From: Companilactobacillus formosensis
GTDB taxonomy: Bacteria > Bacillota > Bacilli > Lactobacillales > Lactobacillaceae
Assembly (NCBI RefSeq): GCF_005405305.1
Contig: NZ_BJDU01000001.1
Coordinates: 184,791 to 248,790, forward strand
Direction of reading: 5' to 3'
Length of the DNA stretch: 64,000 nt
Below the pieces are notes generated by a model. That model was not told the origin of the DNA and ran no database searches. It was given only the letters and a program-made list of their open reading frames with translations. The position numbers and the translations under genes were made by a program. Below, piece by piece: positions 4,284 through 54,000 of the stretch (the stretch's first letter is position 1; every line of letters begins with the position of its first letter).

Positions 4284-4553
4284 ATGGCTCGTAAAGCTAA
4301 AATTGAACGTGAAAAAAGATTACAGGAGACAGTTGCTCATTATGCTAGTTTGCGTAAACAATTGAAGGCAGCTCATGACTATCAAGGATTAAGCGAATTA
4401 CCAAGGGATGCATCACCTGTTAGAATGCATTCTCGTGATCAATATGATGGTCGTCCACATGCATACTTGAGAAAATTTGGTATGTCTAGATTAACTTTTC
4501 GTAAGTTAGCTCATGAAGGTAAAATTCCCGGTGTGAGAAAAGCTAGCTGGTAA
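4284..4553 (+). CDS. rpsN: 30S ribosomal protein S14, zinc-independent form
   Basis: An 89-residue basic protein with the S14 signature [28 protein letters not shown] and C-terminal KASW. It lacks the CxxC...CxxC zinc ribbon of the short (61-residue) S14, so it is the longer C-minus form. S14 binds 16S rRNA in the head of the small subunit. The gene stands alone rather than in the S10/spc ribosomal operon, as expected for a second paralogue that replaces the zinc form when zinc is scarce. No Zur operator is obvious upstream. AGAGG precedes the ATG, and a terminator follows. Confidence 0.93.
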
Positions 4554-4590
4554 TAGTAAGCTTTGTCTAAATTGATTTAAAAATAGAAGA

Positions 4591-4632
4591 AGGACCTTAT
4601 TAGAATGACAAATTCTGGTGAGGTCTTTTTTA
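4591..4632 (+). terminator. Intrinsic terminator after rpsN
   Basis: GACCT (4593-4597) pairs with AGGTC (4621-4625) and AGAAT (4602-4606) with ATTCT (4612-4616), followed by a T-run at 4626. Confidence 0.7.
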
Positions 4633-28085: not shown

Positions 28086-28450
28086 ATAAAAAAACGCCCA
28101 CTAGCATATAGCTAGAGGACGTCTTGACGTGGTTCCACCTCGAGTTCGTTAGTATCTCACAACACTAACCTCAAGAAGTTATTGTAAAAAAATACCCTCC
28201 TAGTCAAAAGACTAAGAGGGCGAATATTCGCGGTTCCACCTCTGGTTCCCAATACCTCACGATATTAGGCTCACGAAGTTACAATAACTTCAGCTTTAAC
28301 GGTGCTACCGAAATGACCTACTTGATTCAATCATTCAACTTACAGATGTGTTTCACCAAGGACTAGATCAACTCACACCAACGTTGATTCTCTGGACTAG
28401 TTAACTCAGTTACTCTTCTGTCGTCGCTTTTTATATTTGTTTGAAATGTT
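28086..28450 (-). promoter_or_regulatory. T-box leader with two serial antiterminator/terminator modules; specifier reads His
   Basis: Read on the minus strand. Stem I contains ACAGA/UCUGU at its base, an AGUA S-turn opposite GAA, AGAGA, and a GNUG-type distal loop. After GAA and one base comes CAC then A, giving a His specifier. The first T-box sequence AGAGGTGGAACCGCG is at 28229-28243 with a terminator at about 28187-28222. A second copy, CGAGGTGGAACCACG, lies at about 28127-28142 with a terminator at about 28088-28125. Each T-box is preceded by its own stem-III-like hairpin, but only one stem I is present. Uncharged tRNA should permit read-through into the importer genes. Confidence 0.88.
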
Positions 28451-52779: not shown

Positions 52780-53595
52780 TTAATTTACTTGTAAGTTAAC
52801 GCTACCCAAGTCATTGTCAAAATCAGCTCGCCAGTTCCCTTTAGTCAATGATGGTGGTAGGACAAAAGTTCCAGAAGATACTCGTTGACCTTTTAATAAT
52901 TGTTTTCCTTGAGAGTCTAATTTCTTTACCAACCATTGTAAGGACTTCAAAGGATTGTCGAGAACTTCTGAAGATTTACCGGATTTCAATTTTTCTTGAT
53001 CGTGAAAGAGGGTGGCGGAGACGTTTGCTAGAGCTTCGACTGACCCTAGAGTTTTAGTGTCTTTTTCATCTCCATAAACGACTAGCCCGCTGACAGCTCC
53101 ATCTGACATGACCATGTATTTGGACAAGCTAGGAAACCAGTTGCTGAAGCGAGAGTCGGGAACTTCTAGGGCTGGTGCTACGGTAGTTTTTTCCAGTAAG
53201 TCTTCTAGAGAATCTGTCGGCAAGAGGTCCTCTTTGGCTCGGAAGCACAATTCAACTTCTACTAGAGGCTCCATTAGGTTCTTCAGTGAGACCACGGCGG
53301 TAGATTTCAAAAAATTATTGGTCATTTCAGCGCCATACAAGGGTTCATTTGCATCAAACATGTCTTGAGTTTGTTTGCTAGTCAATGAGACCTTGTATCC
53401 ACCGACGGAATCATCTTTCAAGTCGGTAAAGGCGTCTTGAACTTGATAGGCTGAGTTCTCGTCGGTGACCAAATTAGTCCAGTCATCTTCTAATAAAGGC
53501 TTTTTAGATTGCAGCGCTTCTGCTAATTCGTTTGCAAATTCCTTTTGGTCATAAGTTAAAGTAGTAGTTTGAGTTGTAGTTGTATTTTGTGTCAT
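52780..53595 (-). CDS. 2-keto-4-pentenoate hydratase/FAH-fold family protein
   Basis: A 271-residue protein like MhpD-type 2-keto-4-pentenoate hydratases and 4-oxalocrotonate decarboxylases. SVGGYKVSLTSKQTQ, EPLYGAEMTNN, PLVEVELCFRAKEDL and APALEVPDSR supply the metal-binding Glu cluster. The enzymes act on small unsaturated 2-keto acids; no aromatic pathway is present here, so the substrate is unclear. I start at ATG 53595, preceded by GGAGG; the longer frame from 53610 covers this ribosome-binding site. Transcription is controlled by a T-box (53710-54000). An overlapping upstream ORF may control translation. Confidence 0.8.
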   Translation of the reverse strand: MTQNTTTTQTTTLTYDQKEFANELAEALQSKKPLLEDDWTNLVTDENSAYQVQDAFTDLKDDSVGGYKVSLTSKQTQDMFDANEPLYGAEMTNNFLKSTAVVSLKNLMEPLVEVELCFRAKEDLLPTDSLEDLLEKTTVAPALEVPDSRFSNWFPSLSKYMVMSDGAVSGLVVYGDEKDTKTLGSVEALANVSATLFHDQEKLKSGKSSEVLDNPLKSLQWLVKKLDSQGKQLLKGQRVSSGTFVLPPSLTKGNWRADFDNDLGSVNLQVN

Positions 53596-53677
53596 AAGTG
53601 GTTCCTCCATGGATTTTATTTTTTAATTTAATCTGAATCTGAGAATCGTTGTTAATGCCACTAATATCGCTTTCCAT
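53549..53677 (-). CDS. Ile-rich upstream ORF overlapping the hydratase start
   Basis: A 42-residue ORF starts ATG 53677 (minus strand), 6 nt after GAGGTGG, and runs out of frame across the hydratase start to TGA at 53549-53551. Five of its first 22 codons are Ile (four ATT, one ATC). The region before its ATG (GTGGTTCC, 53680-53687) is complementary to the hydratase ribosome-binding region (GGAACCAC, 53598-53605). I read it as a translated leader ORF, not a functional protein; no family is recognised. Confidence 0.5.
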   Translation of the reverse strand: MESDISGINNDSQIQIKLKNKIHGGTTYDTKYNYNSNYYFNL

Positions 53678-53711
53678 TTGGAACCACCTCACTTTTTTGA
53701 ATTTTAATTTA

Positions 53712-54000
53712 ACAAAAAACGCCCTCTGATGACTAGAATCATCAAAGGACGTTTACCGCGTGTTACCACCTTTTATTCGTAATATTATTACTAATATTAC
53801 CTTGCACAAACTAATAAATAATTTGTCGGCACGTTAATGGGTGCAACCAGCGTTTTCTACTCGGATAAACCTTTTGAATCGCAACTGACAGGTGATTGAA
53901 TCAATTTTTTGATATTATCTCGCATCAACCGATAACTTTCTGAATCAAGTCGATCGACTCGTTTCCTGCTGAACGTTTTTTATTAAATTAATTGTTGCGA
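53712..54000 (-). promoter_or_regulatory. T-box leader of the hydratase gene; specifier reads Ile
   Basis: Read on the minus strand: stem I with GCAGG/CCUGU at the base and GUUAUC/GAUAAU below a GNUG-type loop; the specifier position (one base after the GAA-like slot, before A) reads AUC, an Ile codon. The T-box AAAGGTGGTAACACGCGG lies at about 53757-53774 and the terminator (ACGTCCTTTGATGAT / ATCATCAGAGGGCGT plus T-run) at about 53713-53752. The S-turn AGUA is not clean, so the Ile assignment is tentative; the T-box itself is clear. Confidence 0.85.

Follow-up and report, generated by a model that had tools for sequence, protein, structure and literature searches.

Taken in aggregate, the comparisons and models suggest that the hydratase leader in this 64,000-nucleotide stretch of Companilactobacillus formosensis (the window) appears to gauge isoleucine twice: a tRNA-binding switch comes first, followed by a ribosome that translates an Ile-coded mini-gene. 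A two-layer isoleucine-starvation switch, in which an Ile T-box precedes a translational attenuator built on an upstream open reading frame (uORF), is the best reading of evidence that is computational throughout, and is probably correct. Sequence comparison provides four elements of this reading: the T-box and its specifier; the uORF and its Ile codons; a co-varying helix; and an enzyme free of isoleucine.

The proposed switch would operate as follows. In the transcriptional layer, the Ile T-box would terminate unless uncharged tRNA-Ile binds. In the translational layer, the ribosome-binding sites of the uORF (arm 1) and the hydratase (arm 2) would pair in the read-through RNA, leaving both closed in the complete leader. 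The uORF site is transcribed first, and a ribosome could load there before arm 2 is made. With uncharged tRNA-Ile, this ribosome would pause when Ile codon 5 enters its A site and would go on covering arm 1, so that arm 2 would be free and the hydratase translated. With plentiful isoleucine, the ribosome would advance, and either arm 1 would re-pair with arm 2 or the hydratase start would be overrun in the +1 frame; hydratase translation would remain low. The stalling, its consequence and the role of the hydratase in isoleucine supply are the steps that we infer.

The hydratase gene (52780-53595, minus strand; ATG 53595; 271 amino acids) encodes a relative of HpaH and 2-keto-4-pentenoate hydratase. 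The T-box leader lies at 53742-53982 of the same strand, where an Rfam covariance search matches RF00230 over the full model (1-219) at 85.7 bits (E 4.5e-19); a genome-wide T-box search returned this score at the same place. A gathering-threshold scan of the whole window missed the element because this score falls below the gathering score of 93. The hallmarks are present: the antiterminator motif GGTGGTAAC; and a competing intrinsic terminator, a hairpin with a T run (53714-53751, minus), which forms a long hairpin in the predicted read-through leader fold. The specifier codon, read by eye from the Rfam alignment, is AUC (Ile; 53894-53896, minus). What the original prediction had called an apparent Ile T-box is thus borne out by match and specifier. 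An ATC specifier is likewise seen by eye in 15 of 17 Companilactobacillus loci, the T-box of the other two (L004 and L005) lying outside the stretch inspected.

The hydratase gene occurs in 17 of 36 Companilactobacillus genomes and 1 of 24 others searched, and is therefore not universal. The closest named relative among the best 80 of 90 loci is C. futsaii JCM 17355, with 96% hydratase identity by tblastn. Imperfect-repeat insertions between T-box terminator and uORF or gene (L004, L005, L008, L186, L190, L193 and others) displace leader elements, apparently without removing them. Elsewhere in the window, a second T-box (28100-28433, minus; Rfam 111.7 bits) has a specifier that is probably CAC (His); another antiterminator/terminator-like element follows it, upstream of an amino-acid ABC transporter operon (both by eye).

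The uORF (53549-53677, minus; 42 codons) encodes MESDISGINNDSQIQIKLKNKIHGGTTYDTKYNYNSNYYFNL and overlaps the hydratase start in the +1 frame. Its predicted ATG (53677-53675) and Shine-Dalgarno sequence, GAGGTGG (53690-53684, minus), are present in the sequence, as are the five Ile codons claimed among its first 22: codons 5, 8, 14, 16 and 22. Codon 5 (ATT; 53663-53665, minus) is the putative main stall site, on grounds of conservation and modelling. Codons 8, 14 and 16 (ATT; 53630-53656, minus) follow, the latter two within CAGATTCAGATT. The uORF stop at 53549 is 47 nt within the hydratase gene; full translation of the uORF would therefore cross the hydratase start.

The 8-nt complementarity first proposed between the two ribosome-binding regions holds, with GTGGTTCC (53687-53680) opposite GGAACCAC (53605-53598), and the helix exceeds it: AGGTGGTTCC (53689-53680) faces GGAACCACTT (53605-53596) in 10 pairs including G-U, and a second segment joins ATGGA (53677-53673) to TCCAT (53613-53609). 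The additional ATGG/CCAT match had been placed correctly at ATGG (53677-53674), which does face CCAT; the CCAT itself lies at 53612-53609 and not at 53607-53610. Arm 1, AGGTGGTTCC...ATGGA (53673-53689, minus), comprises the uORF ribosome-binding site and start. Arm 2, TCCAT...GGAACCACTT (53596-53613, minus), encloses the hydratase Shine-Dalgarno sequence GGAGG (53608-53604). The assignment of both arms draws on the duplex and on co-variation, and folding of the leader RNA, a check suggested at the outset, places their helix in the minimum free energy (MFE) fold.

The effect of a ribosome on this helix was modelled as the cost of opening the hydratase site, from -18 to +13, in the 17 Companilactobacillus loci. 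The probability that GGAGG is unpaired was abandoned as a measure because in the window clade this motif lies partly in an internal loop of the helix; L001 gave 0.60 unpaired although enclosed. Without a ribosome, the mean modelled cost is 12.7 kcal/mol. A ribosome initiating on the uORF lowers it to 5.8, and one whose A site holds the first Ile codon to 6.7; for the second Ile codon it is 12.1, and for the last CAGATT 11.7, or 8.1 if a second ribosome queues behind. The corresponding values for the window are 9.6, 5.2, 5.6, 9.7, 7.0 and 7.0, and a ribosome at codons 14-18 is predicted to give a partial drop too. The drop at codon 5 is modest, from 9.6 to 5.6 in the window and from 9.6 and 9.5 to 7.4 in its two nearest relatives. 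L016, whose uORF is fused to the hydratase, shows no useful modelled release (13.5 to 11.4).

A scan of stall positions puts codon 5 near the last position at which the modelled ribosome lies over arm 1. This depends on the footprint: if it extends 10 nt upstream of the P site, release stops short of codon 5, and 13-19 nt carry it to codons 5-7. The models thus predict opening of the hydratase site by a ribosome at the uORF start or codon 5. In the model, the original proposal that ribosomes on the uORF open the site stands for these positions and fails at Ile codon 8. The uORF site itself would cost 14.5 kcal/mol to open in the full leader vs 6.5 before arm 2 is transcribed, which makes early ribosome loading plausible. 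As the uORF continues through the hydratase start, a ribosome that does not stall would collide with initiation there, not aid it.

A broader comparison covered 80 Lactobacillaceae loci from named genomes (the best 80 of 90). The T-box core is found by pattern in 78 of the 80; covariance searches detect a T-box in the other two and in six more (8 of 8 tested), with three above the gathering score (L034, 121.6; L030, 116.3; L059, 97.9 bits) and five at 75.2-91.2 bits. The ATC specifier is recognized by pattern in 69 of 79 named loci and by eye in the other 10, L059 being unscored. When uORFs are chosen by Shine-Dalgarno sequence only, 73 of 80 loci contain one, and the first Ile falls at codon 5-8 in 71 of these 73, mostly at codon 5, with a second Ile block usually at codons 13-17. 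The uORF and its Ile codons are thus conserved among relatives, a point on which comparison had been suggested. An Ile uORF is also present by eye in L059, L079 and L100; none was seen in 6 of the 80 loci (L078, L082, L086, L091, L093 and L096, from Paucilactobacillus, Fructobacillus and Convivina). Within codons 2-18, Ile is encoded by ATT 220 times, ATA 8 times and ATC twice, counts that are biased because the selection rule demanded ATT at codon 5-8.

Among 72 modelled leaders, chosen by that rule, the cost falls by at least 3 kcal/mol at the first Ile codon in 18; of the Companilactobacillus loci 9 of 10 belong to this group, and of the named Apilactobacillus loci 6 of 6 (the latter with a fall of at least 3.8 kcal/mol). 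One family-wide mechanism of pairing between ribosome-binding sites is ruled out, as 54 of 72 leaders release less than 3 kcal/mol. By this modelling, the helix between the two sites is a Companilactobacillus trait; in most other genera, the T-box and Ile uORF are retained but the models show no release of the hydratase site. Apilactobacillus is predicted to reach the same outcome through a different, three-arm relay. For L048 and L085, folding predicts that arm 1 is bound to arm 2 in the free leader and that arm 3 hides the hydratase Shine-Dalgarno sequence; a ribosome at codon 5 would shift arm 2 onto arm 3 and so release the site. L095 was rejected as a similar relay: its gene-start hairpin is predicted to form in both states, though its opening cost falls.

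Two further features were noted around these leaders. ACACATA or CACATA repeats lie between uORF and hydratase in L053, L042, L065, L079, L088 and L094, and behind brnQ in L182 and L183 (Secundilactobacillus, Lactiplantibacillus and Lentilactobacillus). Three spaced copies of the motif occur in 3 of 5 genomes searched, either within the leader of the hydratase (G426, G427) or following a brnQ gene (G425, G427), vs 0 matches for the reversed pattern; the repeats are perhaps an RNA-binding or linker element. In the Fructobacillus locus L096, a TPP riboswitch (4521-4626; 69.3 bits) lies downstream of the hydratase.

The modelled release at the uORF start bears on the question of what is sensed. 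An initiating ribosome alone accounts for the fall from 12.7 to 5.8 kcal/mol, which is what translational coupling without amino-acid sensing would need: any loading of the uORF would open the hydratase site, and the Ile codons would reflect low complexity or descent. The position of the first Ile, constant to within codons 5-8 in nearly all Shine-Dalgarno-chosen uORFs (71/73), argues against this, as does the occurrence of cognate codons under T-boxes of other specificity (85 and 109 of 100,000 label shuffles). Simple coupling is accordingly considered unlikely, though it is the alternative that survives best.

The evidence from other T-boxes begins in the same genome, where an Ile T-box also lies upstream of brnQ, with the leader MDSDISGIKSPSQIRNNIF.... 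Across the genus, inspection by eye shows a similar leader at 22 of 24 brnQ loci; in L307, L310, L312 and L313, the T-box is not visible within the 330-nt stretch inspected. Across five genomes, 150 of 195 reported T-boxes were surveyed for a uORF led by a Shine-Dalgarno sequence before the gene, with specifiers assigned by eye. Under a lax rule that allows GTG and TTG starts, 41 of the 150 have one. The cognate fraction exceeds that under shuffled labels, which reach it in 85 of 100,000 cases; for the presence of any cognate codon the figure is 109 of 100,000. Stacks of this kind were found for Ile (hydratase, brnQ), Val (brnQ), Trp (trpB, trpD, trpE and a solute-binding protein) and Tyr (nhaC).

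Many of these peptides place arginine directly before the cognate residue. Such Arg-cognate pairs number 13 vs 3.4 expected (0/100,000 shuffles), by a statistic picked after the peptides were seen. Arg-Trp occurs in 8 of 8 Trp uORFs, upstream of trpB-, trpD- and trpE-like genes and a solute-binding protein; RY in 2 of 4 Tyr uORFs; and RV in 2 of 3 Val uORFs. The Arg codon is CGA in 12 of 12 Trp, Tyr and Val pairs, the thirteenth pair (Ile, L135) using AGG; the share of CGA across long ORFs at the named loci is 570 of 3405 Arg codons (16.7%). Companilactobacillus brnQ loci with a Val T-box carry CGA-GTG in five of six cases (L328-L332); in L327 the leader was not found. Slow translation of CGA is described from a leader-peptide assay in Salmonella (PMC4046918). 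The pattern CGATGGCAA is in itself no rarity, occurring in 43 of 151 genomes vs 37 of 151 for CGTTGGCAA; 11 of 30 sampled loci of the former lie under a T-box, all 11 in frame, vs 0 of 10 sampled for the latter.

The pattern has gaps. By the survey rule, no uORF precedes at least one trpE-like gene (L259), the trpS genes (L198, L238, L292) or the PanE-like genes; four uORFs under His T-boxes contain zero His; and the Val content of Val uORFs is not raised (0.042 vs 0.056). Matches of aminoacyl-tRNA synthetase type (L132, L192, L226, L252) have uORFs starting with GTG or TTG only, and the short ORF MKSLWLRPT before the Met T-box gene of L190 was rejected as non-cognate. Nor is CGA exclusive: the leaders of L365 and L366, MINSNVQLNARWQSR and MTNSSLQLNIRWQSR, use CGT-TGG. 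These two show no T-box pattern in the stretch examined and have a terminator-like hairpin and a substrate-binding-protein-like gene downstream, possibly representing an ordinary Trp leader-peptide attenuator in lactobacilli. T-boxes also precede PanE/ketopantoate-reductase-like genes in other genera (L219, L220, L241, L249, L268, L276), with an ATC specifier in L249; these genes are possible further members of the Ile-responsive set.

If ribosomes are held on such leaders, the peptide itself might be the cause, through nascent-chain arrest by its sequence and not through hungry Ile codons. The recurrent arrangement M-x-x-x-I...QIQI, together with GG-x-x-R-V and GG-x-x-R-Y in other leaders, would fit. 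The residues between the Ile codons vary, however (D, S, N, G, Q, K), and from general knowledge a chain at codon 5 is too short for the exit tunnel constriction. Arrest by peptide sequence therefore seems decidedly improbable.

Within Companilactobacillus, comparison of the 17 loci supports both the uORF and the helix of the two-layer switch. In all 15 loci where the uORF was parsed, it runs unbroken from an ATG, its codon 5 is ATT and its relative frame is constant. The distance from uORF start to hydratase start is 76, 82, 85 or 88 nt, in one frame throughout, with spacer steps that are multiples of three, and the uORF stops 20-68 nt inside the hydratase gene (15/15). L016 and L019 were examined separately. 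The L019 leader matches the 15; L016 is the exception, with a distance of 84 nt and a uORF that starts with GTG and is fused in frame to the hydratase. Far from being broken or absent elsewhere, the uORF is open in 17 of 17 loci. In C. nodensis L017/L019 (G015) and in L099, the hydratase match is split across two frames, with the leader intact.

This frame conservation bears on a further alternative, in which the helix serves a low constant translation rate or RNA protection and the uORF is a by-product of a start-like arm 1. A conserved helix by itself needs no translation. Yet the frame is preserved over four spacer lengths in 15 of 15 loci, and uORFs remain in genera that have no helix; a helix acting alone is thus very improbable.

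In the window sequence alone, the complementarity of the arms is unremarkable against chance: when the 152-nt leader is shuffled with its dinucleotides preserved, 285 of 2000 shuffles yield a perfect inverted repeat of at least 8 nt, and for MFE the z-score of the leader is -1.5, an equally stable fold arising in 18 of 200 shuffles. The arms become significant through comparison with relatives. Own arm pairs average -19.3 kcal/mol vs -15.9 for swaps between species, a difference equalled by 0 of 100,000 partner permutations; as the test draws 14 distinct arm pairs from 17 loci of related species, this is not a strict probability. The arms therefore do not vary independently between relatives, the outcome that would have spoken against the original prediction. 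An arm 1 does not in every locus pair best with its own arm 2, which ranks 11 of 14 in L019 and 6 of 14 in L016. Examples of arm pairs are GTGGTTCC/GGAACCAC in the window, GTGAGTCC/GGATTCAC in L004, GGGTCC/GGATCC in L009 and GGTGGGGCTC/GGGGCTCCACT in L016.

The L010-L015 clade has a bulged version of the pairing. Column-fixed pairing over all 17 loci was set aside because the register of the tucceti/nodensis clade has one bulged base, and clades were counted separately. In clade A (8 sequences), 93.3% of cells are paired vs 37-56% in a slid register; the covariation score and the five doubly changed cells are matched by 0 of 500 shuffles, and the two pairs changed on both sides by 330 of 500. 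In clade B (8 sequences), 97.3% of cells pair, with zero two-sided changes. The candidate explanation that the arms are two copies of one ribosome-binding site was ruled out by their complementarity and co-variation. Chance complementarity of two ribosome-binding sites, with which the window alone is compatible (285/2000 shuffles), deserves next to no credence given the co-variation of the arms within the genus.

The enzyme itself is unusual in composition. It matches NCBIfam TIGR02312 with E 3e-26 and 92.6 bits, missing the equivalog cut-off of 351.5, and by sequence is only a distant relative of the 2-oxo-hept-4-ene-1,7-dioate hydratase HpaH. Its relatives of known structure (HpaH/HpcG, MhpD) include PDB 2eb4 (E 8.1e-23) and 1sv6 and 2wqt (both E 2.8e-18); no Pfam family matches up to E 10. 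The window hydratase contains zero Ile, the sole such case among 47 ORFs of at least 200 amino acids, of which the next lowest has 4.0%. The hydratases of the 80 named loci contain 7 Ile in 20,944 residues, and 74 of 80 contain none. In Companilactobacillus, 15 of 16 are Ile-free, the exception with 4 being L016, the locus of the fused uORF. An order-wide search gave 16 of 17 family members without Ile, from strains that partly overlap the 80-locus set; in homologues from the order's other families, Ile stands at 2.9% (11 loci), and in two remote ones at 7.3%. Neighbouring ORFs of at least 200 amino acids average 6.5% Ile. Of 256 such ORFs, 12 fall below 1%, all hydratases by their N-termini, leaving 0 of 244 non-hydratases below that level.

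Loci that lack the Ile uORF help to place this depletion. The hydratases of L082, L091, L093 and L096 contain zero Ile and those of L078 and L086 one each; with four of six Ile-free, composition is independent of the leader-peptide layer. On sequence grounds, Ile depletion tracks the T-box rather than the leader peptide. An Ile-free enzyme would be expected of a protein made under Ile starvation, and the near-complete loss of Ile points to a protein needed once isoleucine is exhausted. Enzymes that supply an amino acid are described as tending to contain little of it (PMC4209129). The hydratase is likewise low in the amino acid that it may help to supply, with a depletion here almost complete, and its family offers a strong case of low cognate bias in nature.

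The original claim that no T-box had been described together with a translational attenuator does not hold, as the anti-TRAP operon of Bacillus subtilis (rtpA) is a precedent, described as being under both a Trp T-box and tRNA-dependent ribosome stalling (PMC11255114). In anti-TRAP, as proposed here, a T-box acts on transcription and a leader peptide on translation, both through the same tRNA. Anti-TRAP senses Trp and its product is a regulator; here, the amino acid would be Ile, the product is an enzyme and the bacterial family is another. The B. subtilis leader peptide has about 10 codons, three of them for Trp, and ends before the gene. Here, unlike in anti-TRAP, the uORF extends across the gene start, and its ribosome-binding site pairs with that of the gene. 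The tandem arrangement, an Ile T-box and then a uORF with Ile codons, is present; with an Ile specifier and a hydratase product, the leader would work like that of an at operon, yet it is not an at operon.

Other known attenuators share parts of this design. In the drug-induced ermC and cat systems, a ribosome held on a leader ORF likewise frees a hidden ribosome-binding site; their signal is an antibiotic, whereas here it would be uncharged tRNA, with a T-box in front. The Apilactobacillus leader is predicted to fold as a relay of the ermC/cat type. The his, trp and ilv attenuators likewise sense charged tRNA with repeated cognate codons. These act on transcription, whereas the present leader peptide comes after a T-box and would act on translation initiation. 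The two devices, T-box and leader peptide, are generally regarded as alternatives; in Firmicutes, for example, leader peptides are described as replacing T-boxes (PMC2965389). A work that lists lactobacillar T-box genes mentions no hydratase in its main text (PMC2494555). In a non-exhaustive search of the open-access literature, no description was found of a lactobacillar T-box with a leader peptide or with a hydratase, nor of stacked examples besides B. subtilis anti-TRAP.

A joint reading would extend the two-layer switch to a general double control by tRNA charging in Lactobacillaceae, combining T-box transcription control with cognate leader-peptide translation control, CGA as a pause helper and a hydratase purged of Ile; its prospects appear evenly balanced. 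In leaders with a single sensor codon, CGA, with its weak inosine-adenosine decoding, would sharpen the pause from its place directly before that codon. A hydratase purged of Ile could still be made at zero isoleucine. CGA before the sensor codon would then be a testable rule for spotting such leaders. The Ile-free hydratase is a lead toward a further step of lactobacillar isoleucine supply. A second, wider set of double sensors, for Ile, Trp, Tyr and Val, would allow it to be asked why cells read one tRNA twice, with speed, threshold or noise as candidate reasons.
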